This document shows positions 591 to 57,000 of a DNA stretch of 64,000 bases, in pieces. The notes under the pieces are model-generated. The model saw only the letters and a list, made by a program, of their open reading frames with translations. It was not told the origin of the DNA and did not search any database. The translations under genes were made by a program, and so were the position numbers. Location: positions 11,069,191 through 11,133,190 of the forward strand of contig NC_088300.1 in assembly GCF_032854445.1 (NCBI RefSeq), given 5' to 3'. Numbering within the stretch: position 1 is the stretch's first letter; every line of letters begins with the position of its first letter. The stretch is from Liolophura sinensis (taxonomy: Eukaryota > Mollusca > Polyplacophora > Chitonida > Chitonidae).

Positions 591-1735
591 TCTATTTTAA
601 TTTAATTCTTTATTTGTTAACTGAAGATATCCCACAACCCATGGGTCACTAGGGGGTCTCCTCAAACTTATATACATCATACATTTATATAATCAAAACT
701 TGATAGTGAAGAATAACATATTTGCAATACACATAGGCGTCCAATACTGCACACACTCATATACTTCATTAGGTACCGATTATATAACTGATTTAAGAAT
801 GGGTTTCAGTCTTAGCACTTTGTACCACAAAAGGAGCTTGTTTGAACTACTTGGTGAGTACGATGGATAAATCTTCGAGTATCTTGAATGAATTTGTGCA
901 CAGAACAGAATATGGTTTTATTGTCTTCAAGAGATAGGTCATTTGATCCAAAACGTAAAATATTTGAGATATGTCTTGAGCAATGCGGAAGGAAAATAGA
1001 TAAGTGAGCATTTGGAGAAATCGTTTTAGTAAACCTGTCGAACATGTGCTTCCTTTGAGCGGCATATGCGGGACATTCAATAAGAAAATGATGAGAATTT
1101 TCACATTTGTAATTACATTTATGACAAGACTGGTCATATGAAAGGCCATTGGTAAATAAGTCTGCGTGAAGAGCGCTCAGTCCCATCCGTATCCTACAAT
1201 GCAGTATCAAGGAAAATGTTACAAAAGAATCGTACAGTACGGAAATAGTAATGCTGTCAACAAAACTAGGTTTGAGATAGGATTTAAGCTTTTCTAGAGT
1301 CGTGACGAAAGTGGGGAGGTATTGAATTCCAATCTTTAATTGTTTGGGGAATAAATGATGACATGTACAACTGGATACGACCTTTGGGAAGACGGATGTT
1401 GTGCTTATTTCGTAGATTGTATGTACTGGCGACAGCTTCATTTCCGCATGGTAGTAATGTTTTCAAATAAGGAGGCGATAGCCCATTTATAATTTTATGG
1501 AAGAGAAGAATTCTGTGGGATCTACGTCTCACATAAAGCGGTTCCCATCTTAGTTCATATCTAGGCCAAGTCTACATCTCACACAGAGGAACAATATCAG
1601 GGAAATGACATGTCCATACGTAATGGCAAGTTTTGTATCCCAGAATACAGCTCTACAAAAGTTATACCCTAATTCTTCTAATTTTTGGGACGCCCGTTCT
1701 GCTCTGTCTACCAAATATACATATAATTGTATCAT
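591..1735 (-). mobile_element. Decayed non-LTR retrotransposon, 3' part of RT ORF
   Basis: Minus-strand frames give the C-terminal part of a LINE reverse transcriptase in at least two broken frames. From about 1735 down to 1550 there is a stretch ending in 'ELRWEPLYVRRRSHRIL', then 'LFHKIINGLSPPYLKTLLP' and 'YNLRNKHNIRLP' (about 1530-1330). After that comes a second frame (1441-812) with a Cys/His cluster (CHKCNYKCENSHHF..EC) typical of the region downstream of the RT in CR1/L2/Jockey-like elements. Stops and frameshifts separate the pieces and no RT catalytic core remains, so this is a 5'-truncated dead copy. 591-811 would be its 3' UTR. The family assignment is by motif memory only; clade not resolved. 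Confidence 0.75.
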
Positions 1736-10837: not shown

Positions 10838-12080
10838 CCACCTATTTCACGTGGGGGGATGACATATATAAACAACTCCACGGTTTACCGATGGGATCCC
10901 CCCTATCACCACTTATCTCCGAAATACACATGACAGAATTTGAGAACAAAGCCTTAGCTGCAAGCCCCATCAAACCGTTGTGTTGGTTCCGTAAGGTAGA
11001 TGACACATTCGTAGCACTAAACAAGACTGACAACCCCCAGTCCCTACTTGACCACCTCAACACCCAGAACAACAGGATACAGTTCACCATGGAACAAGAA
11101 TGCAACAAAACCATACCGTTTCTGGATGTACTTATTAGCAAGAGGAACCACAAACTCCTCACTTCAGTATATCGCAAACCCACACACTCAGACTGATACG
11201 TGAATTACTAATCTAACCAACCTAATCGGATCAAGAGAGGAATAATATCTACCCTAACAAAACGAGCCCTACAGATATCCAGCATCAACCTCCAAGAAGA
11301 AATAAATCACCTCAAAACAGCCTTCACCACCCAAAACCGATACCCCCCACAATTAGTGGAGAGAATGATCAGCAAAACCCTCAATCCGGCTAACAAGACC
11401 AGAGCAACGAGACCCGACCACCCCAATATATATATAACCATTCCGTATATAGGCACCCCAAGCTACCAGATAAGAAGACCCCTGCATGACAAACTGAACA
11501 TACAAACAACGCTTACCTCCGCCTCTAACCTTAAAACCCTACTCAAAGCCAATGGAAAGAAACAGCCAACCCATAGGCAAGAACCCAAAGGATCTGTGTA
11601 CTGCACTAATTGTGATTGTCAACAGCAATACATTGGAGAAACCGGTAGACCACTCAATATCAGAATTGCAGAGCACAAGGCCTCAGTAGAAAAATTAGAT
11701 GGAAAATCAGCCCTCAGTGACCACATCAGAGCCCATCCAGAACACCAACTCCAATGGAACACAGTTCATACCCTACAAAACAACCAGTCAGACTATAAAA
11801 GAAGGAAACTGCTGGAAGCCATCATGATCCGACGACACAATCCACAGCTTAACCGAGACAGCGGGTACCACCTACCGAGCGCCTACAATGACCTCAATAG
11901 ATTAGACAGTGACCGCCTTAAACCCTGAAGCCATTAATATCTATGTTACATTGTTGCCTGTTTTTAACACCACTCACTCTCTTATTGTATATATGTTGTC
12001 TTGTATCTCTGTATGTTCATATGGTTTGATAACGATGTAAGATCCTACATCGAAACGTCACCAACACAATAAATCCAGGA
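10838..12080 (+). mobile_element. Penelope-like element, 5'-truncated: RT plus GIY-YIG
   Basis: One frame runs from about 10850 to the stop at 11926-11928. It contains the RT motif 'LPMGSPLSPLISEI' (about 10885) and the catalytic motif in mutated context, 'FRKVDDTF' (about 10988), where Y/F-V-D-D is expected. Next come 'IPFLDVLI' and 'VYRKPTHSD', and then a GIY-YIG nuclease domain with 'YCTNCDCQQQYIGETGRP' (about 11597-11650) and downstream 'RIAEHK'. This domain order is diagnostic of canonical Penelope-like retroelements. The frame is broken by TGA at 11194 and TAA at 11209, and the N-terminal half is missing, so the copy is dead. The 3' UTR (11929-12080) holds a hairpin 'cgatgtaagatcctacatcg' followed by 'aaacgtc', near the element's end. 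Confidence 0.9.
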
Positions 12081-22050: not shown

Positions 22051-24486
22051 ATGGCAGTAAACAGGTATGATATTGTGTCATCTATTTATCCTGATTCTAA
22101 TTTAGGTGTTATATTATACATGGGATTTGATAATGATGGTGTCAAGTGGCGTTTTGAAAGAAATATGGATCAAGAAGGCTTATATTTTTAGAGGCCTACT
22201 GAAAAGACTGCAAACGAAAACGAAAGTAAATGGCAGTGGCTACGTGTAAACTTCCAGGCACACCAGAATGCTGTTTGTGTGTTGCAATATAGGGACAGCC
22301 AAGGGTCAGCTTATGCCAGGGAATCTCAGACAAAATAGCCTACATATTTGTCCTTTTAAACGAAAGGTCGTATATTTGGGGCGATAAAGCGGTGTCTCAC
22401 CAGTTTCGTGTTTTGCGTGTGTCACTCATTCCGGAAATTGTACGTGTGGTCTTTACCAGGGTTTGTGTGTCACCAGTTCTGTGGTTTCCTTGTGTCACAC
22501 ACTCAGGGATTTGTAGGCCCTATGTGTCATCTTCACCAGGGTTTGTGTGTGTCACCAGTTCTGTGGTTTCCTTGTGTCACACACTCAGGGATTTGTAGGC
22601 CCCATGTGTCATCTTCACCAGGGTTTGTGTGTCTCACCAGTTCCGTGTTTTGCGTGTGTCTTTCATTTCGGGATTTGTATGTGTCATCTTCACCAGGGTT
22701 TGTGTGTCTCACCAGTTCTGTGGTTTGCGTGTGTCACTCACGCACAAATTTGTATGTGTCATCTTCACCAGGATTTGTGTGTCTAACCAGTTTCGTGTTG
22801 TGCGTGTATCACTCCTTTCGGGATTTGTATATGTCGTCTTCACCAGGGTTTGTGTGTGTCGCCAGTTTGTGGTTTGCTTGTGTCACTCATTCCGGGATTC
22901 GTATGTGTCATCTTCACCAGGGTTTGTGTGTCTCACCAGTTTCGTGATTTGCGTGTGTCACACACTCACGGATTTGTATGTGTCATCTTCCCCAGACGAC
23001 ACATACGCGTGTGTACGCGTGTCACACACTCACACTCTTCACCAGACGACACTTACGCGTGTGTACGCGTGCCAGACTCAGGGATTGCTATGTGTCATCA
23101 CCAGTTTTGTGGTTTCGGTACGTGTGCCACTCACTCAGGGGTTTGCATGTGTAGTCTTTACCGGGGTTTGTGCGCTTTACCAGTTTTGTTGTTTGCCTGT
23201 GCCACTCACTCATTGATTTGTATGTGTCGCGTTCACCAGGATTTGTGCGTTTTACCAGTTTTGTGGTTTGTGTGTGCCATTCACTCATTGATTGGTATGT
23301 GTCGGCTTTACCAAGTTTTGTGCGTTTTACCAGTTTTGTGGTTTGTGTGTGCCACTCACTCATTGATTTGTATGTGTCGTCTTTACCAGCTTTTTTGACA
23401 GTCGTATGCTTCGGCTTGAATATTGATCAATATTCTCCGTTAAAGATCATTTCGCCGGTAAGATTGTTGGCTCTTATTTTGTTTTATTTTTGTTTCCTGT
23501 ACAGACAAGAGCTTCAGCGCATTCTTTCCGAATTGTCGGTGAAGATTCGAGTAGACGAGGAGGACTTGAAGAAATCAAGAAGAACAATGGAGGGTGTCAC
23601 CCAGACGCTGCTTAAAGGCTTACAAATGCAACATGGCATCGTCCGTAATTTTCAATACACCGGAAGCTCATATGAAGGCACCAAGATTATACAAGCTGAC
23701 GAGTTTGACGTGATGGTTCTACTGAATGGAAATATGGAAGGAGGTCTGCAGATTGAAACTAGGACGCCAGGTTACGCAACCTTGCAACCGAAGAAACCAT
23801 CGGCGGCTATATATTCAGATTTTTTGGTTTGCGACCATAGGTTTTTGAGTCCTGGAAAAGTGAGGCAGCGGTTCACAGGAATGGTGCAGACACAGCTGAA
23901 TAAGTTGAACTTCCCTGTACCAGTGAAACTGTTGGCTCACGGACCGGCTGTCATGCTCAGGATAGAAGACAAACACCATATCGTCGATGTGGATTTAGTC
24001 CCAACGTTTGTTGTAGACGACCAGTTCTATGTGGCCAAACCATACAAGAGTTACGCTGACAACCCAGAACGCAGTATTGGCGGGGTCTCTAACTCCCTAT
24101 TCTGGCGTCAATCCACATCCCTTGACGAGAAGAGCATGTTATCAACAATTGATCGCGACCAGGGCTGCCGACGTAAATGTTTGAAGATCCTGAAGTACAT
24201 GCGCACTAGGGATGCCACGCTGAGTCGCCTGACCTCATTTCATTTCAAGAACCTTGTGCTGCATCATGCCGCCGACGGGGACTGGAGGGACGCCAATATG
24301 GCGGAAAGGTTCCTGGGTTTGTTGCAGAGCTTGTGTACTTGTCTAGATGGCGGTAACCTGAAGCATTACTTCATACCCCCAGTCAACTTGCTAGACGGGT
24401 TCGGTGCGAACGTCATCGCCAACCTCAAAGGACGCGTAAGACGGCTGACGAGCAGTGACCAGGCAATTCGACATCTTCTACAGTAG
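22051..24486 (+). CDS. cGAS-like receptor (cGLR), copy 1, 2 exons
   Basis: CDS is 22051-22064 joined to 23505-24486. The 14-nt coding exon 1 (MAVN plus two bases, context gaaaATGg, donor gtatga) meets acceptor 'tttcctgtacag' in phase, giving 331 aa. The core is the cGAS/Mab-21 nucleotidyltransferase fold: G58-S59-S60 (TGSSYEGTK), then E71-x-D73 (ADEFDVMVLL), then the third metal ligand D168 (VDVDLVPTF). The helical half follows (CRRKCLKILKYMR, residues 226-238). All three catalytic acids are present. The zinc ribbon (H-C-C-C) of vertebrate cGAS is not seen. Family knowledge: cGLRs sense foreign nucleic acid or other ligands in the cytosol and make cyclic dinucleotides for STING. The ligand and product here are unknown. 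A polyadenylation signal AATAAA lies at 24666. An unspliced frame reads from the intron repeat into exon 2. Confidence 0.9.
22390..23400. repeat. Minisatellite in cGLR copy 1 intron, unit about 75 bp
   Basis: About 13 units containing 'caccagttctgtggtttgcg', 'tgtcactcactcagggattt' and 'catcttcaccagggtttgtg'. Stop codons are rare in several frames, giving misleading open frames of 150-195 codons. It lies wholly inside the intron. Confidence 0.9.
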
Positions 24487-28809: not shown

Positions 28810-31244
28810 ATGGCAGTAAACAGGTATGATATTGTGTCATCTATTTATCCTGATTCTAATTTAGGTGTTATATTATACATGGGATTTGATAATGATGGTG
28901 TCAAGTGGCGTTTTGAAAGAAATATGGATCAAGAAGGCTTATATTTTTAGAGGCCTACTGAAAAGACTGCAAACGAAAACGAAAGTAAATGGCAGTGGCT
29001 ACGTGTAAACTTCCAGGCACACCAGAATGCTGTTTGTGTGTTGCAATATATGGACAGCCAAGGGCCAGCTTATGCCAGGGAATCTCAGACAAAATAGCCT
29101 ACATATTTGTCCTTTTAAACGAAAGGTCGTATATTTGGGGCGATAAAGCGGTGTCTCACCAGTTTCGTGTTTTGCGTGTGTCACTCATTCCGGAAATTGT
29201 ACGTGTGGTCTTTACCAGGGTTTGTGTGTCACCAGTTCTGTGGTTTCCTTGTGTCACACACTCAGGGATTTGTAGGCCCTATGTGTCATCTTCACCAGGG
29301 TTTGTGTGTGTCACCAGTTCTGTGGTTTCCTTGTGTCACACACTCAGGGATTTGTAGGCCCCATGTGTCATCTTCACCAGGGTTTGTGTGTCTCACCAGT
29401 TCCGTGTTTTGCGTGTGTCTTTCATTTCGGGATTTGTATGTGTCATCTTCACCAGGGTTTGTGTGTCTCACCAGTTCTGTGGTTTGCGTGTGTCACTCAC
29501 GCACAAATTTGTATGTGTCATCTTCACCAGGATTTGTGTGTCTAACCAGTTTCGTGTTGTGCGTGTATCACTCCTTTCGGGATTTGTATGTATCGTCTTC
29601 ACCAGGGTTTGTGTGTGTCGCCAGTTTGTGGTGTTGCTTGTGTCACTCATTCCGGGATTCGTATGTGTAATCTTCACCAGGGTTTGTGTGTCTCACCAGT
29701 TCCGTGATTTGCGTGTGTCACACACTCACGGATTTGTATGTGTCATCTTCCCCCAGACGACACATACGCGTGTGTACGCGTGTCACACACTCACACTCTT
29801 CACCAGACGACACTTACGCGTGTGTACGCGTGCCTGACTCAGGGATTGCTATGTGTCATCACCAGTTTTGTGGTTTCGGTACGTGTGCCACTCACTCAGG
29901 GGTTTGCATGTGTAGTCTTTACCGCGGTTTGTGTTTGTTGCCAGTTTTGTGGTTTGCGTGTGCCACTCACTCAGGGATTTGTATGTGTCGCCTTCACCAA
30001 GTTTTGTGCGTTTTACCAGTTTTGTGGTTTGTGTGTGCCACTCACTCATTGATTTGTATGTGTCGCGTTCACCAGGTTTTGTGCGTTTTACCAGTTTTGT
30101 GGTTTGTGTATGCCACTCACTCATTGATTTGTATGTGTCGTCTTTACCAGCTTTTTTGACAGTCGTATGCTTCGGCTTGAATATTGATCAATATTCTCCG
30201 TTAAAGATCATTTCGCCGGTAAGATTGTTGGCTCTTATTTTGTTTTATTTTTGTTTCCTGTACAGACAAGAGCTTCAGCGCATTCTTTCCGAATTGTCGG
30301 TGAAGATTCGAGTAGACGAGAAGGACTTGAAGAAATCAAGAAGAACAATGGAGGATGTCACCCAGACGCTGCTTAAAGGCTTACAAATGCAACATGGCAT
30401 CGTCCGTAATTTTGAATACACCGGAAGCTCATATGAAGGCACCAAGATTAAACAAGCTGACGAGTTTGACGTGATGGTTCTACTGAATGGAGATCTGGAA
30501 GGAGGTCTGCAGATTGAAACTAGGACGCCAGGTTACGCAACCTTGCAACCGAAGAAACCATCGGCGGTTATATATTCAGATTTTTTGGATTGCGACCATA
30601 GGTTTTTGAGTCCTGAAAAAGTGAGGCAGCGGTTCACAGGAATGGTGCAGACACAGCTGAATAAGTTGAACTTCCCTGTACCAGTGAAACTGTTGGCTCA
30701 CGGACCGGCTGTCATGCTCAGGATAGAAGACAAACACCATATCGTCGAGGTGGATTTAGTCCCAACGTTTGTTGTAAAGGACCAGTTCTATGTGGCCAAA
30801 CCATACAAGAGTTACGCTGACAACCCAGAACGCAGTATTGGCGGGGTCTCTACCTCCCTATTCTGGCGTCAATCCACATCCCTTGACGAGAAGAGGATGT
30901 TATCAACAATTGATCGCGACCAGGGCTGCCGACGTAAATGTTTGAAGATCCTGAAGTACATGCGCACCAAGGATGCCACGCTGAGTTGCCTGACCTCATT
31001 TCATTTCAAGAACCTTGTGCTGCGTCATGCCGACGGGGACTGGAGGGACGCCAATATGGCGGAAAGGTTCCTGGATTTGTTGCAGAGCTTGTGTACTTGT
31101 TTAGATGGCGGTAACCTGGAGCATTACTTCATACCCCGAGTCAACTTGCTAGACGGGTTCGGTGCGAACGTCATCGACAACCTCAAAGGACGCGTAAGAC
31201 GGCTGACGAACAGTGACCAGGCAATTCGACAACTTCTACAGTAG
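28810..31244 (+). CDS. cGAS-like receptor (cGLR), copy 2, 2 exons
   Basis: CDS is 28810-28823 joined to 30266-31244, with the same splice sites as copy 1; 330 aa. The active site is intact (GSS, E71-F-D73 and the D in VEVDLVP). Relative to copy 1 there are 22 residue changes and one lost Ala codon: E24K, G35D, Q55E, I67K, N81D, M82L, A106V, V113D, G122E, D166E, D176K, N201T, S215R, R240K, R246C, H258R, G276D, K291E, P297R, A310D, S321N and H328Q. Only two silent changes were found. D166E sits two residues before the third catalytic acid, and I67K lies between the GSS and ExD motifs. No stop or frameshift, so it should be functional unless the duplication is an assembly artefact. A polyadenylation signal AATAAA lies at 31424. 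Likely role as for copy 1, possibly with a different ligand preference (inference). Confidence 0.9.
29149..30158. repeat. Minisatellite in cGLR copy 2 intron, unit about 75 bp
   Basis: The counterpart of 22390-23400, with unit-level differences near 29920-30060. Confidence 0.9.
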
Positions 31245-34784: not shown

Positions 34785-35305
34785 AAACATGAACCTTGTT
34801 TACAGAAGTACGAAAGATAACACCGTTACGGAAGTATTGGTGGCAAAGGTGTGGTACGGGGATTGCATGGTTACAGAAGTACGGGTGATAAAGGTGTGGC
34901 ACGTGGATTGCATGGTTACAGAGGTATGGATGATAAAGCTGTGGCACGTGGATTGCATGGTTACAGAGGTATGGATGATAAAGGTGTGGCTCGTGGATTG
35001 CATGGTTGCAGAGGTATGGATGATAAAGGTGTGGCTCGTCGATTGCATTGTTACACAAATATGGGTGATAAAGGTGTGGCACGTGGATTGCATGGTTACA
35101 GAGGTATGGATGATAAAGGTGTGGCACGTGGATTACATGGTTACAGAGATATGGATGATAAAGGTGTGGCACGTGGATTGCATGGTTACAGAGGTATGGA
35201 TGATAAAGGTGTGGCTCGTGGATTGCATGGTTACAGAAGAACGGGTGATAAAGGTGTGGCACGTGGATTGCGTGGTTGCAGAAGCACGAGTGATAAATTG
35301 TGACC
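34785..35305. repeat. Minisatellite, unit 45 bp, about 11 copies
   Basis: Unit 'ggtatggatgataaaggtgt' plus 'ggcacgtggattgcatggtt' plus 'acaga'. The 45-bp unit is a multiple of three and lacks stops in several frames. As a result, long repeat ORFs exist on both strands (about 207 codons on minus, 173 and 150 on plus) with 15-residue periods such as GYRGMDDKGVARGLH. No flanking domain or splice context supports translation. Confidence 0.9.
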
Positions 35306-38516: not shown

Positions 38517-41500
38517 CTATATTGGATCTCTGTTTAAAATTTTTTCAATTTCTGGAACACCTTTCTTAATTATACTTTTGAGTCGTGTTCTCATGTTTTC
38601 CATTGCACTGTCTTTAATGTTTTCAAACACGTTTATGTCACCATCAATGCAGTGGGGAAGTTTTCTCTGCTCTAGATAGAGTGACAGCTGGTTGAGAAGC
38701 CCCCAGAACCGCTCCGCCAGCTGGTTGGCCGCCCATGTTTCTGAGGTCTGGGGCAGTCGCTGACACTCGTTCAGCAGTAGGATCTTGTAATGGTAGGAAT
38801 CCAATCCCTTCAGGGTAGACTCACGCAGACGGAAAAATTTGAGCAGCCTCAAACACTGTCTCCGACAGCCACCATCCTTGTCGATTTTGCTCAGCCTCTG
38901 CTTCTCCAGCAGTGAAAATGATTTCCTCCACAAAACTTCTTTTTGCGGCACACGACCTTTGATAGCCTTGGCTTCAACATCAGTCTTACATGATTTGGCT
39001 ACATAATTGTCATTCAACACTTCAAAGGCAGGAACCAGGTCTACATCAATCTTACCAAAGTCTGATTTCCGCTCAGATTTAATGGACAACTTGACAGCTG
39101 GTCCATTTTTGCTGATAGTTACTTGATATTCGTGGCCTTTGGGGAAAAGTTTATTTGCCGCGAGTTGAGTCCAGCCAAATATCTGAGATATGACCTTCTC
39201 AGGATCCAGGAAACCATCGGAGTCCAGATACTCTTTAAACTTATAGTTGTCAGGGTTACGGGGATGTAGGGATGCAAACTGGGGATGCTGTCGTGTTGGG
39301 TCCAGCTCCTTCCCATCCAGCATGAGTAGCACATCATATTCGTCAGCCGACTCGATCTTGGCTCCTTCAAAGGAGCTTCCGGCATACAAAGGGCGAAGGA
39401 CAAGCTCGTGTTCTGTCTGTAAAATATTCACAATCTTTCTGGTGACATCGTTCATCACCTTACTTGACTTAATCTTCTCTTTTCCAACTCCAAGGGGCAC
39501 CTTCCTCAGGAGTGCCAACAAGTCTTTTGGAGCCTCAGCATTGTTCATACTTTCAGATTGCCGTCTTTGTGATGGTATGGAAGGCGGGACGTTTGCATCT
39601 GGACTTCCAGATTGCCGTCTTTGTGATGGTAAGGAAGGCAGGGCATTTGAATCTGGACTTTTAGATTGCCGTCTTTGTGATGGTAAAGAAAGTGGGGCGT
39701 TTGCATCTGGACTTTCAGATTGCCGCTTTTGTGATGGTAAGGAAGGCGGGGCATTTGCATCTGGACTTTCAGATTGCCGCTTTTGTGATGGTAAGGAAGG
39801 CGGGGCATTTGCATCTGGACTTTCAGATTGCCGCTTTTGTGATGGAAAGGAAGGCAGGGCGTTTGCATCTGGACTTTCAGATTGCTGTCTTCGTGATGGT
39901 AAGGAAGGTGGGGCACCTGCAACTGGACTTTCATACTGTCGTCTTCGTGGTGTTAAGGAAGGTGGGGTGCCTTCATCGAAATATTCAGACTGCCTTTTTT
40001 GTGATGGAAAGGAAGGTGGGGTGTCTTCATCGGCACTTTCAGGTTGTCGTCTCAGTTCAGTCTCTGAGTCTACCTGATACCCTCTTCTGCGAGACCTGTC
40101 CTGTTCTAATGTAGTTTCATTGCTTGCACAACATGTTACTTCCTGGTTTGATAAACTATTTCTTGCGGGATCCATTAAGTGAACACTCTCTAATTGGCTC
40201 TCCAAACCTGCCTTTTTACGCTCATTGCTGTTTCTGAACAATGTGGTGAAGCTCCCCTGGTTATCGCTGGTCCAACATTTAAAGACAATAAATGAAACCG
40301 AATTAGTCATTATCAAACAATCTTTTACATACATGTGCACGTATATGGGTGAGATATCATTATTTACGATGACTTGAACATGAAATGGAAATAATATATT
40401 TCATAGTTATTTTGCAATAGAACATATTTGTGCAAAATTATGCTTAAGTCCAAAGGTTTTGCCCACCAGTACAGAGCAATGACCCAGGAGCCTCTCACCA
40501 ATGCAGTTTCTGTGAGTTGCTGCTGGCTTCCTCTCCGGCTATATGCAGGAAGGTCTGTCAGCAAAGTGCAGATGGTCGTGGGTTTCGTCCGGGTTCTGCC
40601 CAGTTTCTTCCTATCAGAATGATGGCCTCCGTTGTATACGTGAAATATTTTTGAGTACAGCATAAAACACCAATCAAATAAGTACATTAATACTCAAATA
40701 ACTCACTGGGAAATCTTCCAACCAATCAAAAGTCAAAATGGCATGTTACTTATTTCTTCACTCACCTTTGGTGTTCTTCCAAGGACAGTGAATCTATTAC
40801 ATTTGTCCGGTGGGATGCTGAGATGAAGGGCCAGAAGTTGATCTTTCTGATGTAGCACTTTAACTGTACACCTGACTGGTCATCTACACAGACCTCTGTC
40901 ATCAGGTTTGACAACTCCACCCACTCAAAGTCGCTCTCAGCTTTCACGCTGTTGACAGGGGTCAAGGTCATGGTAATGAGGCGGACATACTCTTCTTCAT
41001 TACAACCATCTTCTACAATGAGACAGTTTAGCTCTTGTACGACACGGCTTGCCAGGTTGTCACTCTGGGTTAAGGAGCATCTGACAAGCTGACAACCGTT
41101 TGATATGCTCCCTCCTCCTCCTTCTATTGTCTGGGACTGTACAACTTCTACCACAAACTCTACAAAATGTAAAACAAACATTAAACAATCACTTTTAGAA
41201 AATGGAGTTGAGAATAATGGCTGGACTGAGACTGAATGGTCAGCTTAAATCCAAATCAACTTGATACAAGGTCAATTTAATACCAGGTCAACTTAATATT
41301 TATTTATTTAACTGATTGGTGTTTTACGCTGTACTCAAGAATATTTCACTCATACGACGACGGCCAGCATTATGGTGGGTGGAAACCGGGCACAGCCCGC
41401 AGGGAAACCCACGACCATCCGCAGGTTGCTGGCAGACCTTCCCACGTACGGCCGGGGAGGAAGCCAGCATGAGACTTGAACTCACAGCGACCGCATTGGT

Positions 41501-43696
41501 GAGAGACTCCTGGGTCATTACGCTGTGCTAGCACGCTAACCAACTGAGCCACGGAGGCCCCTCAACTTAATACAATGTCAACTTGATACAAGGTCAACTT
41601 TATACAAGGCCAACATGACATGTACTGATATGATTGATGTTGTCTTGCTCTATTGGTACATCATCCTTTTCAATGGAAGCTGTTTTATGGTAATGTGTGA
41701 TGCATGAATATTATACTTTTGTAACATGTAGCTGAACTTGCTTGTCTCACTCATGCAGATATGGTTCCTGTAAAAGTTTTTGATACAGAGCAAGACATAA
41801 GGGGAAAGTATTTTCTAACCTGCATATTTTCCATATGATACATCATTTTGTGTTATACCTGTCAAACAAAGAGCAAAGAATGTGATAAGAAACAAAACAT
41901 GAAGTATCATATATATAATAATCACGATTAGCATTGAATACCATAAAATACTCTTCTACATGTGTCTGGATAACAAACAGATGAAAAAAAGAAATGTTTC
42001 TTAATACACATCAATAATGAACACTCCTTTCAAATATGGCAATTAAAAAAAAACAACACAAGAGCCAAACCTTTTAACCTTAAAGGAGAAGAAAACTTAT
42101 AAACATGACACAATAGGCTGAAAAGAGCACATTTTTTCTATCTGGTGGTGCCTGCTGCATAATTTTGCGACTTTTCTTTGCCACACACGTTAAGCTTGAA
42201 AATGGCACAGCTGGCATAAATCGCTGAATCCATTGCGTCCTACATCTTTAACACCCTGTAACTTGTGTGGTGGGTGTGTTGCTTCTCAGCCAATGAGAGT
42301 CGTTAAAACTGCCGGCTTGTTCGTGTAAACTCAGAACCTACGTCCAACATTCCGGTTTCTCGATCGTCAAGTGGAAGAAGAGTTCTATCAGAAATGAACG
42401 AACTGCACTTTGGCGGTTTCCGATGGCAATTTTCCTCCTAACACAGAAGACTTCAGGACTACTTCTTGGGCAAAATGGAGTCACCCACAGCGGATGTTGG
42501 CGCTGACTTTATTTATAATTTCTCAACTTGAGGTACATATATTAGAATTTTGTTTATGGCATGCACCTGCCAGGATATACATACTCTTTTCAATGGTATT
42601 TGATTGATATTTTCTTCTCCTTTAAAGAAAAAACAACACATGTGTCAAACCTTTAAAACTGTGCCCTGACTTCTCTGTTAGTTCACTTGACTGCATCTTG
42701 AGGGATTTGTACTCTGTGGATAGGAAGGAGCAAAGTTCAGTTCTGTAACACAATTCACAGTTTCAGGTTTATCCCTTTTGCTATCCCACAAGTAATACAA
42801 GATTGTTCAGAGTGCATCTCGATCTCTTCCCAATCTCTCTACCATGGCAATGTAATGTCTACAGGGCTGTTTGCCGTAGTAGTAAAGTGCTCTTAATGTC
42901 ATGAGGGCTTCCTGCAAATGAGCCCAGGAACAGATAGCCCTGGCTGATATCTCCTTGTCTGAACAGCTTTGAGAAAACCACTATATGTCTGGTTATTTAT
43001 TTCACTGGTCTTTCACATGGTAGTCAAGAATATTTCACTCACACAAAGGTGGCCAACATTATGGTAGGAGGAAACTAGGCGGAGCCCTCGGGAAACCAGA
43101 TCTGCTGACAGACCTTTACAAGTATATGCCATATGCCTGGAGAGGAAGAAAGCACGAGTTGGATTTGAACTCAAAACGACTGCATTGGTGAGTTACTCCT
43201 GGGTCATTGCTCTGAGCTGGCATGCAGAAGACAACTACAGTAGCAGTCTCAAGCAAGTGGGGGGTTATACATTGGCACATGTTTATGACGTACCTTTGAA
43301 CACTGTCACATACAGGTGGCGTTGACAGATATCTCGGTGTTGGAACAGCTCCATCATTACCTCACATCCCTCGTCTCGCTTCCAGACTCGTATCAACAGC
43401 TCTCTGGCCATGTCCTGAGCACTACCCTTAGATCTGATCCCGTCCATCACCCCCAAGTTGATCACTTCCCTCTGCACCAAATGGTCTAAGTAGTCCTCGA
43501 CGATGATGTTCTCTGTCAACTTTACGAATACTCGCTGGAAGGCACGCCGTAAGGTATGATGGTCAAACCGCAGGTAAGGCTTCTCCCCAGAGGTACTGGA
43601 CACCTCCGAGGAAGAGTAAACAGACTCTGAGAATGGAGTTTCTGGGTCCATCTCACTGAAGCCGTCCCCACTGAGAGATAAAAAATCCTCCTGCAT
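38517..43696 (-). CDS. CARD-cGAS-like receptor fusion, 3 exons
   Basis: Minus-strand exons: 43696-43294 (donor gtacgt), 41159-40766 (acceptor ttttgtag, donor gtgagt) and 40266-38517 (acceptor ttggaccag). Phases fit (1, then 2) and the total is 848 aa plus stop. Residues 47-128 are CARD-like: 'AFQRVFVKLTENIIVEDYLD', then HL..REV, then 'SAQDMARELLIRVWKRD' and 'CEVMMELF'. Residues 135-265 are an unassigned region. Residues about 338-508 are about nine 20-residue repeats (QKRQSESPDANAPPSLPS type). The C-terminal cGLR domain has G562-S-S (YAGSSFEGAK), E575-x-D577 (ADEYDVLLML) and D675 (IDVDLVPAF), so all catalytic residues are present. No cGAS zinc ribbon is seen. CARDs are known to nucleate death-fold assemblies and cGLRs make cyclic dinucleotides; joint signalling by one protein is inference. 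The 5' end is 1.35 kb from the divergent KCTD3 start. Weakest point: the exon-3 acceptor. Confidence 0.88.
39545..40077 (-). repeat. Coding minisatellite in CARD-cGLR, unit 60 bp, about 9 copies
   Basis: Lies in exon 3. Each 60-bp unit encodes 20 residues around 'RQSESPDANAPPSLPSQK'. The central units are nearly identical and the outer ones diverged, the usual pattern of array growth from the middle. Every unit keeps the frame. Confidence 0.92.
40440..40690 (+). mobile_element. SINE family 1 copy in CARD-cGLR intron 2
   Basis: 'gcaatgacccaggagcctct', 'cagatggtcgtgggtttcgt' and the tail 'gtgaaatatttttgagtaca' then 'aacaccaatcaaataagt'. The A-box region is eroded. Confidence 0.85.
41235..41630. 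repeat. Short tandem repeat 'caacttgatacaaggt' hosting a SINE
   Basis: Units of about 17 bp (gtcaacttgatacaag) lie on both sides of a reversed SINE insertion (41299-41571). Confidence 0.75.
41299..41571 (-). mobile_element. Near full-length SINE family 1, CARD-cGLR intron 1
   Basis: Reversed copy from 'tttatttatttaactgattg' to 'ctgagccacggaggcccc', with both promoter boxes preserved. An 11-bp repeat 'tcaacttaata' (41288-41298 and 41572-41582) fits a target duplication, although the site is itself repetitive. Confidence 0.88.
42990..43235 (-). mobile_element. SINE family 1, diverged, CARD-cGLR intron 1
   Basis: 'cactggtctttcacatggta', 'caagaatatttcactcacac' and 'tggatttgaactcaaaacga', all in reverse orientation. 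Confidence 0.8.
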
Positions 43697-45047
43697 CCTG
43701 TGCTGCTAGCTGATTGACACTAGATCGACGACGAGTGGGACACTATGCGTTACACTGCCAGCAATATTTACAACTCTTCCGATTTCAACCCACCCTGTCA
43801 CAAAAAATATAAAAAATAATTTTCACACTTTTTCAGACCAACCAAATTCTTTCAAACATTAATTACCAGGCTAAAATGAAGTGTTTATTTTCGTGTATAC
43901 CTATTTTCCCAGACATATATGTGTATGAAACAAACAATGTCTAAGGATGGTCTGGCCCTAATTAGATACTTACACACTTAGGCCTACATCACTGTATGTT
44001 GACTGCAGGGAACACCACAGCTGTACCTGTACCTAATACACAGGGACCTGTAACATTGGCCTACACTGGTGAAATGAGTAGGATACATGCATATTCCTAT
44101 AGGCCTTATGTACCAATAATATAAACTATTCATTTGCGCCTACTAAATTAATACACGTGATAGGCCTCCATAACACTACAGTATAGGCTACCATGTTGGC
44201 CTACGTAAATTTAGGTAGGCCTAATATATAGGCTACTGATGGCCTAGCACACAAGCGGTTAGGTATAAAGGCCTGCATTTATGTCTTCATATATTGCCGT
44301 TTATTCTTTTGTCCACGCGATGCCGGGTGAGTATACTTAATTACCCCACAAAAGACGTACCGACTGTCAGTGAGGAAACATGGCCGACCAGCTTGTCGAC
44401 CTCCCAGTCACGGCGTATGCAAACATGTGACTCAATGATTACGCTATCTAAACTGAGATAAGACAATGAGATCGGTATGTATATATGGACATCTATACAG
44501 ACATCTGTCAACACTACACGTTACCTGTTGTGACCTTAATTAGCAGCAGAGGGAACTTCACGGAATATATCCTACACACAACCACTCCAATCCACATAGA
44601 TATACGTCATCACTACGCGCAAAGAGAAAGCGAAAGTAAAACACACCGAGGGTCTGGACTTTCAACAAGGACCTGGATCTGAATGTATGGTGTATGGCCA
44701 AACACGATTATTCAGTTTGCTCTGTAACAAAATTCATTCATGTAAAAGATTCTGCTGTTGTTTAAATAGGCCTGTGTACACCTTGTAGGCCTACATGGAT
44801 ATATGTAGCTGGCTAACATAGGCCTACAAACTGACGCTGCTATGGCTGTGAAGGGAGACAAATATGGATAATCAGGGATAAGGTTGTCGGCCTTTGTGAA
44901 ACAGATGGCGCTTCAAAACCCATCATGGACGAAATTGTGTTGATGATGCACAAATGTATCATCGCACAAAATTAAACATTATGGCTCCTGTATTTAAATA
45001 ATTCGCTTAACGGTGAAACTGGGCAGAGCTCTGAGGGCCTCAGTAGG
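43697..45047. promoter_or_regulatory. Divergent intergenic region, CARD-cGLR and KCTD3
   Basis: 1,351 bp between two start codons pointing away from each other; it must contain both 5' UTRs and promoters. The KCTD3 side is GC-richer with several CpGs. No TATA box or known response element was recognised. A short ATG frame at 44382 (MADQLVDLPVTAYANM) ends at once and is not called a gene. Confidence 0.5.
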
Positions 45048-48000
45048 ATGGCCGCTCCTCCGTTGGCCGTGCAAGGTGACATTATCCATCTGAATGTCGG
45101 TGGCACACGGTAGGTCGGAGTGCACCATTCTTTCTGCTACGTTGTGTACACTAACAGCGCGTGATGATATTTGATTCCGTTGAGGTGTCTTTTTAATATA
45201 TTAGATTCCATGCTAAGAACTGTAGTGCTTTCATGTACACATTATCAGTCAGCACAGATTGATTTACACTTCGGATTTGCTTTTGCGCCCGCCGCCGGTA
45301 CCACGAGGAAAATCGTGGAACAATTTGATTTACAACATCAAGGAAATGTTTTGAGGATGCAGGGTTCTATCATGTCAGTCTGCTAATTAAATTGTTTACC
45401 TCTCTGATTAGAAATGATGGAGAACATCGAACTAAACCGCAACTTAAGTTGATTAACTTGGACTTGGCTGCAGTCCAAAAGTGGTGTCAACTTTGGCTCT
45501 TACCTCTCAGCTCACCCGCACACGCAGCATCCAAGATATATTCCATTTGGTAATGGCTCGGTGTATGGTTTATCATTGGTTACCTCTATAGCTACAATAC
45601 TCAGCCAGCCCAATATAAAGAGAGGAGTTGAAGGAGACACCTGGGGGCTACAATGACGGATGAATACAGCTAGGTGTATCTTACAAAAAAGTTGCACGAT
45701 TGAAATGTTTTATACTTTTTTTGTATTGGGCCATTCACAGAGAATGTTTGCCTACTCTGCATCACTTTTCTGGGTGCAAAACATTTACTCTTTAAAACGT
45801 AACACTTTTTTCTGGCCGTACATGTTTAGGTCTTCCGACAACCTGCGGATGGTCGTGGGTTTTCTCCCACCATAATGCCAGCCTCTGTTGTATAAGTGAA
45901 ATATTCTTGAGTATGGCATAAAACAACAATTAAATAAATAAGTAAAAACTTAACACAACCCATCAAAAGCATAAAACATCTTTATATTCCTAATGGATTT
46001 TATTTTGATTGAATTTTGTTGATAAGGATATTTATCAACTTTCCTCTATGATGTCTTGTACTTTTCGTAAATCTGAACATTTCTAAGTGAAGTACGCATG
46101 TTTTTTTCACATAGATTTGCTGCAAAGTTCTGCGTCCAACACAGGTGGCGCCTTTCTACCTTCTATTTTAAATTCTGATATTCAGCATTATATTGAGCTC
46201 AGTCATGTTGCGATTGCATGGTATCTCAGTTTCAAACATAGAGCTGCAGAATTGTGAGCTCTAACTCAGTTCATGCTTGTAGTGCATAAACTTTTAGCAA
46301 ACATACTGTCCTCTAGCTCTTGCTTTTTGCATAGATGCGTATTGCCTTTAATAGGTTTATGTGGTTAAATATTATTGAATTATTTCCATGTCTTTGTTCT
46401 GATAATATGGTACTCGAAGTGGACAGTTTTTGTCATCCACCTCACTGTTCACTTTTCTTGTCATTTAATATGTTTGTGATGTTTTATAAATCTCTTTTCC
46501 AGGTTTTCCACATCAAGACAAACATTGACATGGGTCACAGATTCTTTTTTTTCAAGGTGGGTAACTTTTGGTGTAAATGCATAATGTGTGAAGTTTAACT
46601 CTGAGAGCGAGTTCCAAAGTACCATGCAAATGTTTTGGCACTCTAGAATGATAAATGAAGGTTTACATGCATTAAAATTCCATTATTTATTTTCAAACCA
46701 GTTGGCTATGCCAGAGCCATAACAGCTTCTCTGGTATTAATTTTGACGACCATAGTAATGGTGTGTTACTTTGGAATCTATGGAAAGTGGAGATTTCTTT
46801 TAGTAAAACTTTGAACAGTAACCAGAACCTAGCATGGGTAAACCACCCCTGATGCTACATGTGAAACCCATTCTTTGATACAGACATGTAACAGTGGAAA
46901 AAATTAGGCTAATAAAGTTTTCTGTGATCTTATAAAATGTCTGTTGTTGATTTCAGCATGTTAAGTGGAAGGATATCCACTCTAAAGGATGAAACGGGTG
47001 CAGTAAGTTAAACTTGTTTTATAGTGTAATTTTATTCTGCTTTCTGTAGTGCTAGTTTTGTAGTTTTGAAGGGTTGGTAAGGGAAGCGAACGTGGTGATT
47101 ATTTTAGGAAAAAAAAATGCTAAAGCTATAAGTACAAATCTGTGTTCACTTCAGTTAAATGTATAATGGTAGATTTTTCTTAAGGCAGAATCTTGTTGCA
47201 GTACTGTGATGGTTTCTTAGTTCTTCTTTGAAAATTCATATTCACAAAGGCTAACACATACAAATGAAATTAGATTTGCACTGAGGTAACCTATTTGTGA
47301 CTTGTTTGTTTTTTGTTGCAGATATTTATAGACCGAGATCCAAAGTTGTTCTCTGTGGTTTTGAGTTTTCTGAGAACAAAAGAAATAGACCTCCAGTAAG
47401 TACTTGTAATTTGTGAAAGTTTTTTTTTGTAAATATATAACATATATGGAATTTTTATATTTTCCAAGGCTAGAGGTATTTTATTTAGATATATTTTCAC
47501 TTTTTAACATTTTCATTGTCTAATCATGGAGGAGACATGTAACTGCCACATAATTTCATATATCTGTTAGAGTAGGCCCCCCCTAACTGTGGCTCACGAT
47601 GACATTTACAGAGTACTCTGGGCTTTAACTACAAGGATTGACTTGAGATATTTTGTAATTTAGACATTTCTCTTTGTCAACAGAAGTGTGGATCTACATG
47701 CTCTGCGCCATGAGGCCGAATTTTATGGCATTTCTCCGCTGGGTAAGATTGTGTATATTATTGATCAATGTTTGAGGTATTGCATAGCACATTCCAGAAA
47801 TGGGGTGACATTAAAAGAGTCACAGACACGTCACAGTAGATAGTAATATTCTACATATTTAAAAATGAGAATGATCAACCACCCATAATACAAACTGCCA
47901 TTATATAAGTGAAAAACAGTCAAATAAATAAATATATTAATGGTGAAATATAGTGCTGAAAATGTTTTCATCTAGTATTGGTAATCCCTAAACTCTTCTG

Positions 48001-54000: not shown

Positions 54001-57000
54001 TCTTGGCTTAGTTTAGATTGTATTTTTTAAGAATATGGATTTCTCTTCACTTCATGAAAGGTATATGTAAATTGAGGATTATGACTTTGTGGGAAATGAA
54101 AAAATGGAAAAAAAAACAACAAAAAAACGTGCACATGCATCTAAAGAAATTGAAACCATTTGTTTCATGTATTATCCTGTCAAATTCCTTGTGTCTTTTC
54201 TGTGCCTGTTAGGATGAAGGACTCAACAGGCTGGTACCTGATCTGGACGAGTCCGTACATGGATAGTGTGGTAGAGAGAATAGCCATCAATGCCAAGGTG
54301 CTCAATCCAAGCCAGGACAACATCAACAACAAGATGGTGGCTGTGGCCCTGTGCAGTTTAATCCGTCTGTGGTCAATCAGCGATGACGGGGAGTGCCGGG
54401 AAATTGGTTAGTATATGTCAGACTAGTCACACAGCTCTTCAGGTGCATACAACATAGGCTCTTAACACTGATTACCTGTTTATACCAGAAAGGTGTCACA
54501 TTTCACCTTACAATCTGTTACAGTAGATATATCCTGGACAGTTCGATAGGAGCCCACTCACTAGTTCGGTCACTGTGAGTTCAAGTCCAGCTCATGCTAG
54601 CTTCCTCTGCAGTCGTACGTCATGGTTTCCCTTGGACTCTGCTCAGTTTCTCATCGTAAAGTGAAATATGCTTGAGTACATCGTAAAATCAAAGTCAATA
54701 AATAAATGGACAGCTCCGTATGGAGACATGCAGTTGCATCATACGGATTATTTGCTGATTAGCCCCTGCCTGCATCGCACACCCAACTGACAAAGATTGT
54801 TTCTTTTATCACACATGGATATAAGCTCATGAGGTTTGTATGTTTTCTTCCCAGGCACATTCAACCTGAATGTCTCCGTGGACTCGTTGTTCTTCATCGG
54901 CAGTCAATTAGTGGCTCTCAGCCAAACGGGCAAGGTGGGGGTGTGGCACGCGATGACACAGCACTGGCAGGTATGTACAGCACCTAACCTTCATCAGGTG
55001 TTAGTTAGTGGTTGTCAGTCAAACGGACAAGGTGGGGGTGTGGTAGTGATGGCAAGTTGGGGTGAGACGTGTGATGATATGACACCTAACCTTCATCAGC
55101 TGTCAGTTATTGGCTGTCCGTCTGAGTTAAAGTCCAGCTCATGCCAGCTTCCTCTCCAGCCATATGTAGGAAGGTCATCCAGCAACCTGCGAATGGCCGT
55201 GGGGTTCCTGGGCTCTACCCAGTTTCCTCCCACCATGATGCTGGCTGCCATCGTGAAAGTGAAATATTCTTTTGCACTGCAGAAAACACCAAGCAAATAA
55301 ATAAATACATCAAACAGGCAAGGTAGGTGTGTGGCACTCAGTGACATAGCACAGACAGGTAGATATACATACAGCACCTAACCTTTATCAGCTGTCAGTA
55401 TGGCGGAAACATGCACTGGCTCTGCAGATACATGCAAAGGTTCTGCAGATACATGCGCTGGTTCTGCACATACATGTACATGCACTACACGAGTACAGCA
55501 GGTACATGTATGAGACATAGTCATGCACAGTTTGTTTTTCTCATGATGTCATTTTGTCTAGCTGTAGGCTATTCATCTTAATCTGCTATTTCTTGACAGA
55601 TTCAAGATGTGGTTCCCATCACCAGTTATGACACAGCGGGTTCTTTCCTGCTCCTAGGTTGTAACAATGGTTCTATTTATTACATCGGTGAGTGTTAGCA
55701 GAATGTATGTAGTCAAGTTCATGTACGCTGTCACATAAAGATAACAGTGCTACCATGTGACTAGAAGTGGAAACAGTCTAAGTGATGGGGCTAGTTTATA
55801 CATTGTAACACTTTGTTGTTGACAATACTGGTGGATTTCACTCTGTGGCAATTGCTAAGTGTCCATCCCCAGAAATCGTTTGGTTCAGTTTGGTTAAAAC
55901 GAATGAAACAAAGGAATACTCAGAAAATGGGTGTCGAGTTGGTTAATTTTTTTCCTTGGAGTCGATTATTAGAAACAGCTGTTGAGAGAGCAGGCCTGGT
56001 GAAAGTAGTCCCACAAGCACAACAGGGAATGTTTACTACTACAATGACACGCTTCACCGATCAGAACTGTCATGATACCGCCCAGCTGTATTTACCATGT
56101 AAATCTTTTCTACATGAAACGTTGGCAACGCACTAAATTAAATACCCAATTAGTATAAAAATTAGTTTTCTTTTTTTTTTTAAAGCCTCTTAACAAATTG
56201 TCAGTTTACACAATATTGTTTAAATGTATCACTACTCAGTGGCCAACTGATAAAGGGATTCATTTGATTCGCTTAAATCGTTTTAACCGAATGGGTAAGT
56301 AAAGGCTGTAGATCAAGTTCGGTTTTCAGGGAAAAATAAAATAAATGAATGCAAACGATTTAAGGGAACGGTCACTTAATTTACTATTAAATGGTATTAT
56401 TAGCTGAGTACGTAGTGTGATAGCACAGCAAAATGTCTCGGGAGCCTACCACTAATGCAGCTGCTGTGTGTTCAACTCCAGTGTATGTGGGAAGGTCTGC
56501 CAACAACATGGAGATCGTTTCCCCAGGGCTCTGCCCAATTTTATCTCATCATAATGCTGTCTGCCGTCATATAAGTTAAATATTCTTGAATATGGCATAA
56601 AAAACCAATCAAATAAATGAATAAATAATGTCATTTTGGACAGTAGACTTGTACTAAAGATTTGTTGCAAAGCAACTGAGGAATAGTAAATAAAATTTGC
56701 TGTGTTTAACAATGTTTTGAATTATTGAGCAAAATTTTGCAAAATGCTACTGATAAGCAGAAAAATTGTGTTCAGGTCGAACATTTAATGAAGTTGAAAA
56801 CTGATTATTATCTGTTATTTTCAGACATGCAGAAGTTTCCATTACGAATGAAGGATAATGACCTGCTGGTGACAGAACTATACAGAGACCCCTCAAATGA
56901 CATGGTTACAGCCCTTAGTGTCTACCTTACCCCCAAAACCAGTGAGTAGCTCTGGCGTGAAGCAGTCTGACAAAGCACTGACACAGACGTATATTCTGTA

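Follow-up and report, generated by a model that had tools for sequence, protein, structure and literature searches.

Vertebrates keep cyclic-dinucleotide sensing apart from CARD-based sensing, with separate receptors for each. According to the available text of a 2023 preprint by Li et al. (PMC9980059), 87% of cGAS-like receptors (cGLRs) stand alone with no added domain, and one such protein, 8gjw, is a C. virginica cGLR according to a legend in PMC12424679. The same preprint text describes Stylophora pistillata cGLRs fused to death domains or ankyrin repeats, and the available text of Kaur et al. 2021 (PMC8195603) describes oyster proteins of the composition HEPN-Ig-DED-TRADD-N-Mab-21-TPR, of which XP_011454060.1 is an example.

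The chiton (Liolophura sinensis) locus analyzed here encodes a CARD and a cGAS-like domain in one predicted reading frame. As in the Stylophora proteins, a cGLR core and a death-fold domain would reside in a single animal protein, although the coral protein, as described in that text, has a death domain whereas the chiton protein has a CARD. The oyster type shares with it a molluscan origin and a death-fold domain N-terminal to the cGAS-like domain but has a DED plus additional HEPN, Ig, TRADD-N, and TPR segments, whereas the chiton protein has a CARD. With the stand-alone animal cGLRs, 8gjw included, the chiton protein shares both cGLR halves and the catalytic residues; those proteins have no added domain, whereas the chiton protein has an N-terminal extension of about 500 residues that contains the CARD, and a non-canonical residue before the Gly-Ser. 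The initial annotation did not place this architecture in an established receptor class. That statement appears to hold for the CARD version, of which no description was found among the titles, abstract openings, and main-text passages covered in a search of the open-licence PMC literature on cGLR, CARD, and related domains, but not for death-fold-cGLR fusions in general, which the available texts report from coral (PMC9980059) and oyster (PMC8195603). Hence CARD-cGLR appears to be a variant of the fusions already reported, in which CARD would be a third death-fold type, beside death domain and DED, in marine invertebrates.

The window is the whole 64,000-nucleotide stretch of DNA that was analyzed. 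Within it, three minus-strand exons (43696-43294, 41159-40766, and 40266-38517) join to give a reading frame 2,547 nt long, with 848 codons and a stop codon:

43294..43696, minus strand: exon 1, with the start Met, a Ser/acidic N-terminus, and the CARD; phase 1 donor AAAG/GTACGT
40766..41159, minus strand: exon 2, a 131-residue acidic region, phase 1 in and phase 2 out; donor CAAAG/GTGAGT
38517..40266, minus strand: exon 3, with a leader, the repeat linker, and the cGAS-like domain up to the stop codon

The three phase-matched exons proposed earlier were thus recovered and give a frame of 848 residues, the phases being compatible at both junctions (the first exon measures 403 nt, the first two together 797 nt).

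The explanation that we favor, with moderate confidence, is a single gene encoding an 848-residue cytosolic immune receptor in which a CARD is followed by an acidic region with no assigned domain, then by a long, flexible linker of repeats, and at the C-terminus by a cGAS-like nucleotidyltransferase. The ligand of the basic enzyme domain would be a foreign nucleic acid or some other molecule, and the product of this domain a cyclic dinucleotide that acts on the STING proteins of the genome. The CARD would pair homotypically, either with a second copy of itself or with a different CARD protein (a caspase, a BCL10-like, or an Apaf-like protein), and these contacts would bring the enzyme into a death-fold complex or raise its concentration there; the length of the linker would let both ends act without steric conflict. 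What the sequence shows is the CARD, the cGAS-like domain, and a gene model that keeps them in frame; the ligand binding, the product, and the CARD contacts are inferred. The genome has STING genes: exons matching the STING ligand-binding domain form a group on C12, between 21.31 and 21.37 Mb, with 11 matches at E 0.1 or lower, five of which exceed the Pfam cut-off. A more ambitious version, which we hold only tentatively, is that one receptor has two outputs, a ligand-driven cyclic dinucleotide for STING and a complex of the caspase or BCL10 type nucleated by the CARD. Both domain calls of the earlier one-receptor reading proved right, and the locus is most economically read as one gene. The catalytic motif departs in part from the canonical form. 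With a natural CARD-cGAS-like fusion one could examine directly whether a cGLR is activated or positioned by death-fold assembly, and whether a single sensor is able to drive STING and caspase/NF-kB outputs alike. If the two-output version is true, one molecule wires the cGAS and CARD pathways together; we know of no such single-molecule link for any chiton.

On profile and model evidence, exon 1 encodes a genuine CARD:

43295..43585, minus strand: CARD (AlphaFold2 model of residues 38-134, Foldseek and VIA fold matches)

The assignment of residues 47-128 or thereabouts to a CARD was borne out by a protein scan in which Pfam CARD (PF00619) scored 36.0 bits over residues 54-121, against a cut-off of 23.9, and the codon score of the exon, 26.7 bits, was equaled by none of 1758 noncoding windows. 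A structure prediction that could have placed the region outside the death fold returned the CARD fold. The AlphaFold2 model (pLDDT 91.1, pTM 0.81) is a six-helix death-fold bundle with a split first helix (model residues 9-18/20-26, then 30-38, 44-51, 56-69, 73-81, and 89-96), the split first helix being a mark of CARDs. Foldseek matched the model to the Apaf-1 CARD at probability 1.00 and TM 0.77-0.79 in the top three rows, although none of the CARD matches at probability 1.00 reached E 0.001 or better, and VIA gave Z of 13.8-14.4 against Apaf-1 CARD chains. Note that the alignment behind the model contained 19 other CARDs, so the model may be drawn towards the CARD fold and the fold test is not fully independent. 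Receptors of the RIG-I/MDA5, NLRC4, and Apaf-1 types combine a sensor with a CARD able to nucleate homotypic complexes, and their CARDs appear among the fold matches; their sensor is a helicase or a NACHT/NB-ARC ATPase, whereas that of the chiton protein would be a nucleotidyltransferase.

The C-terminal part of exon 3 matches both halves of the cGLR enzyme, at 60.1 bits for Mab-21 and 59.0 bits for Mab-21_C (Pfam cut-off 24.1 each), and has relatives in the window:

38892..39371, minus strand: Mab-21 nucleotidyltransferase domain (PF03281), Pfam, residues 565-724
38580..38867, minus strand: Mab-21_C helix-bundle domain (PF20266), Pfam, residues 733-828
23155..24486, plus strand: neighboring cGLR-like paralogue, an open frame with its enzyme exon from near 23503 and a canonical TGS
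29916..31244, plus strand: second neighboring cGLR-like paralogue, with a canonical TGS motif

The domain has a pI of 9.2. Its GSS is residues 562-564 (AGSS at 39383-39372, just upstream of the Mab-21 Pfam match), E575-Y-D577 lies at 39341-39333, and the third-acid candidates are D673 and D675, the latter at 39041-39039. The initial annotation called GSS, ExD, and third acid all intact. The Gly-Ser and the three acids are indeed kept, together with both Pfam halves, but the published cGLR motif, h[QT]GS X8-20 [DE]h[DE]h X50-90 h[DE]h in the available text of Li et al. (PMC9980059), requires Gln or Thr where the chiton protein has Ala (AGS), and allows 50-90 residues where the chiton protein has 95 before the third acid. 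An expectation of a fully canonical motif thus proved wrong. The strict motif fails on exon 3, and so we call the domain cGLR-like rather than a curated cGLR; both other cGLR-like frames in the window pass.

This departure raises the possibility, which we consider unlikely, that the gene is one fusion whose enzyme half has, like MID51 or Mab-21-like proteins, lost or changed its catalytic activity and serves as a ligand sensor or scaffold that signals only through the CARD. The failed motif favors this, as does the presence of MID51 and Mab-21-like chains among the PDB sequence matches of the domain. However, the catalytic Gly-Ser and acids are retained, and the closest solved chain by sequence is not MID51 but 8gjy (E 3e-22), which was deposited as cGAS-like receptor 1 and itself lacks Gln or Thr, reading KGS in the sequence alignment. 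Homology to known cGLRs spans both lobes: Pfam covers both and the 8gjy match consists of two stretches, one per lobe, at 65.3 bits for the C-terminal and a weak 15.7 bits (E 0.05) for the N-terminal. The best PDB sequence match of the paralogue at 23155..24486 is Mab-21-like 1, and with the Mab-21-like and MID51 matches this leaves enzyme versus pseudo-enzyme unsettled from sequence alone. We consider that the exon 3 cGAS-like enzyme probably makes a cyclic nucleotide signal.

Exon 2, weakly supported, is the least certain of the three exons. Its codon score of 3.5 bits is the best among its six frames, and 53 of the 1758 noncoding windows reach that value; the surrounding open frame (40765-41244), taken whole, scores -2.0 bits. 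No significant match was found in Pfam or among PDB sequences. The sole PDB sequence match, ribosomal protein S12 at E 1.1, is not credible, and the Pfam candidates were at chance level: OapB at E 0.03-0.04 throughout and, when the exon 3 leader residues were included, DUF2677 (E 0.02) and C2-set_3 (E 5.7). The AlphaFold2 single-sequence model is all-beta with pLDDT 48, and Foldseek recognized no fold, with probability at most 0.06 in the best 50 of 131 matches. Exon 2 occupies the position of TRADD-N in the oyster proteins, as described in the available text, and has no match to Pfam TRADD_N (the wider TRADD-N families of PMC8195603 lie outside this one model). Genome-wide, TRADD_N gave two matches, both below cut-off and both away from the CARD-cGLR locus, and UPA gave three within 4 kb on C1 and none at the locus.

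The repeat linker noted earlier in exon 3 was found:

39549..40052, minus strand: tandem repeat array, a 54-nt (18-residue) unit in 9.3 copies, forming a Ser/Pro/Gln-rich linker

The coding frame had 59/127 silent versus replacing changes among the copies; the two remaining forward frames had 35/144 and 57/126, and the reverse frames 33/153, 75/108, and 52/127. The coding frame thus shows no excess of silent changes, which neither supports nor refutes coding. The linker behaves as unconstrained, contrary to the expectation that it would be constrained.

The junctions bear on whether there is one gene. Splice sites were scored with generic metazoan frequencies rather than ones trained on this genome. 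By these scores the exon 1 donor ranks fourth and the exon 2 donor first of 534 GT sites, and the exon 2 acceptor 11th of 563 AG sites. Exon 3 has a weak acceptor at 40266 (84th of 563) and an alternative in-frame acceptor 33 nt downstream, at 40233, scores better, so 40266 is a provisional start for exon 3. The introns contain copies of an interspersed repeat, the pattern of which has four matches in the window (0.12 expected):

40457..40692, no strand assigned: inverted copy of the repeat, 236 bp, covering roughly half of intron 2
41291-41536 and 42980-43225, in intron 1: other copies of the repeat

We regard as unlikely the alternative of two genes or transcripts, in which a small CARD protein comes from exons 1 and 2 (or from exon 1 with read-through into intron 1), and exon 3 is part of an independent cGLR-like gene that, like the paralogues, has a promoter or upstream exon of its own. 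A stop codon lies in frame within four codons past the exon 1 donor, an in-frame TGA (40765-40763) overlaps the exon 2 donor, and AATAAA signals in intron 1 (at 43001, 42513, 41308, and 41304) make a short CARD-only transcript possible. The weak exon 3 acceptor and the weak codon statistics of exon 2 also favor it, as do the nearest relatives of the CARD-joined enzyme. These are four neighboring genes that are 39% identical to it and 93-98% identical among themselves, and genome profile searches placed no CARD match near any of them; none was found by either paralogue in the window. Against two genes, the phases fit at both junctions, the exon 2 donor is the best in the set, and intron 2 (40765-40267) is only 499 bp, of which the repeat takes up about half, and lacks AATAAA and ATTAAA. 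These features, together with the high rank of the exon 1 donor, argue for one gene, as does the finding that no phase 1 acceptor scoring above 1 lies in 39600-40400 to allow skipping of exon 2 from exon 1.

Exons 1 and 2 have no credible second copy in the genome (for exon 1 taken whole, no paralogue at E up to 1; for exon 2 only the self-match and one at E 2.4 containing stops), so the fusion is not confirmable from a duplicate. A whole-genome profile search gave at least 20 CARD matches, every listed one above the Pfam cut-off, among which the CARD exon ranks 13th (40.9 bits, E 1e-7). A Mab-21 match lies about 4 kb from it on the same strand; no other listed CARD match has one nearby, the next-closest being 666 kb from a Mab-21 match. 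About 0.002 same-strand CARD/Mab-21 neighbors within 5 kb are expected by chance, by simple arithmetic that ignores immune-gene clustering and uses match counts that are lower bounds. That the CARD instead inhibits its own protein, or acts as a decoy to block other CARD proteins, without nucleating assembly, seems very unlikely: CARD inhibitors exist (ICEBERG and ARC, so titled, are among the fold matches of the model), but no sequence feature favors block over assembly.

Returning to the single-gene model, intron 1 contains two candidate additional exons. A 63-nt candidate at 42713-42651 was spotted by eye and is absent from the splice-scan list. The sole cassette in that list is the following, the score of which is exceeded by two of 38 control segments:

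41820..41858, minus strand: candidate 39-nt phase 1-1 exon in intron 1, GITQNDVSYGKYA, combined splice score 9.9

The three minus-strand exons at 43696-43294 (CARD), 41159-40766 (an acidic region without an assigned domain) and 40266-38517 (repeat linker plus cGAS-like enzyme) join in frame to encode 848 residues and probably form one gene. Donor 2 ranked first and donor 1 fourth among the 534 GT sites on the same strand between 36.5 and 44.5 kb; acceptors 2 and 3 were 11th and 84th among the 563 AG sites there, and an in-frame acceptor at 40233 outscored that of exon 3. Splicing of exon 1 directly to exon 3 would disrupt the frame, because the splice-site scan gave no phase 1 acceptor in 39600-40400 a score higher than 1. 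Neither AATAAA nor ATTAAA occurs in intron 2; intron 1 contains four AATAAA and one ATTAAA. As judged from open-frame bounds, an in-frame stop precedes the start codon of the CARD exon, and there seems to be a divergent plus-strand gene about 1.3 kb upstream. It is plausible, therefore, that the coding sequence of the gene begins in the CARD exon, although there may be others upstream. Intron 1 also carries a 36-nt duplicate (42045-42080 and 42625-42660, 83% identical), the latter copy of which overlaps the end of a possible 63-nt exon. Features within and beside the gene were as follows.

40457-40692, in intron 2: interspersed repeat, inverted relative to its intron 1 copies (repeat comparison)
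44976-45113, plus strand: open frame of the apparent divergent gene, ending in a 12-residue stretch that we take to be BTB-like

Coding potential was scored with a codon model whose training set was 3,667 codons taken from matches at other places in the same genome (18 CARD and 10 Mab-21). Exon 1 scored 26.7 bits, a score that none of the 1,758 noncoding windows reached, and the enzyme core 56.2 bits. The 3.5 bits of exon 2 were reached by 53 of the 1,758 windows, and the whole open frame around that exon gave -2.0 bits. The statistic is imperfectly specific, since an open frame within a repeat array on the plus strand (34821-35300) reached 23.2 bits and the frame antisense to the linker (39247-40074) 18.2 bits. 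The window has more open frames of at least 160 aa than expected under a Markov model (18 versus 0.88); by eye, many of the long ones sit in minisatellites.

The CARD scored 36.0 bits in the Pfam protein scan and 40.9 bits when the whole genome was scanned, and all 11 PDB sequence matches at E ≤10 were caspase, BCL10 or CARD-only chains (E 0.013-0.28). A structure model built from an alignment of this CARD with 19 others from the same genome had a pLDDT of 91.1. The three highest Foldseek rows were Apaf-1 CARD (probability 1.00, TM 0.77-0.79), although no Foldseek match passed E 0.001, and in VIA Apaf-1 CARD chains (Z 13.8-14.4) effectively tied with a designed protein ranked first at 14.6. 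Identity to the 19 other chiton CARDs is 11-23%, and thus no particular partner can be named. The genome holds at least 20 CARD matches, several of which may come from one gene; two, L013 (C7:57618108) and L015 (C6:65215101), lie in long open frames of 643 and 497 aa and may be further multidomain CARD proteins.

Both Mab-21 halves of the enzyme domain were found by Pfam. The fused enzyme reads AGSS where its four closest relatives read TGSS, and it departs from the published cGLR motif (Li et al., PMC9980059) in the residue before GS and in a spacing of 95 versus 50-90; both window paralogues (23155-24486 and 29916-31244, plus strand) conform. That residue is V, I or R in several other Mab-21 frames of the genome, and it is not strictly fixed, as 8gjy, a chain whose deposited name is cGAS-like receptor 1, aligned with KGS. 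Mab-21-like 1 and MID51 chains also matched the fused enzyme in the PDB sequence search, and Mab-21-like 1 was the best match of the paralogue at 23155, with MID51 and cGAS behind. Judged from its sequence, the fused enzyme is likely but not certain to be catalytically active.

Searching the genome (632 contigs, 609,464,459 bases) placed the four closest relatives in the region of C6 around the window (C6:11069191-11133190): two of these frames fall inside it, and the others are at 11.187 and 11.195 Mb. They share 39% identity with the fused enzyme, and among themselves the four are 92.9-97.9% identical (326 aligned residues). These identities indicate a local tandem family of which the fused enzyme is an older member, the four others being recent copies. 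The match that follows in E-value is 27% identical, and the six left after it are weaker, most of them partial. Long degenerate minisatellite frames precede the enzyme exon in each of the four cGLR-like relatives, at about 22.4-23.4 and 29.1-30.2 kb for the two in the window (23155-24486 and 29916-31244), and likewise at the other two, L001 and L002. Genome-wide there are at least 17 Mab-21 and 27 Mab-21_C matches, lower bounds of which one gene can yield several. Ten other Mab-21 frames, drawn from 17 loci, were scanned with Pfam, and none had within its own open frame a domain (E ≤0.01) other than those of Mab-21/MID51 type; domains on separate exons would escape such a scan. A cluster of STING ligand-binding-domain exons on both strands of C12:21312077-21373090 (11 matches at E ≤0.1, five of them above the Pfam cut-off) apparently represents several STING genes.

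The analysis shows two domains, one in-frame model and a repeat linker. In the proposed mechanism the basic enzyme domain would bind ligand and make a cyclic dinucleotide, and the CARD would mediate assembly; such assembly is a reasonably probable role for the CARD. The initial annotation knew of no established receptor class with this architecture. The joining of a death fold to a cGLR is already known as a kind of molecule, since Li et al. (PMC9980059) and Kaur et al. (PMC8195603) describe such proteins: a death domain-cGLR in the coral Stylophora and a DED-TRADD-N-cGAS in oyster. Within the open-licence literature searched, what appears to be new is the fusion with a CARD, together with its repeat linker and its occurrence in a chiton.

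Dispersed plus-strand open frames at about 44.9-62 kb are divergent from the CARD-cGLR gene and presumably resemble a KCTD3/SHKBP1-like BTB/WD gene; the frame at 54833-55297 had no Pfam match. Two further open frames lie elsewhere in the window.

11212-11928, plus strand: 238-aa open frame with a YIGETGR motif
812-1462, minus strand: open frame with a zf-RVT match below threshold (E 0.016)

The first had no Pfam match, and its motif is one we take to be reminiscent of the GIY-YIG endonucleases of Penelope-like elements. The second is perhaps a LINE remnant.
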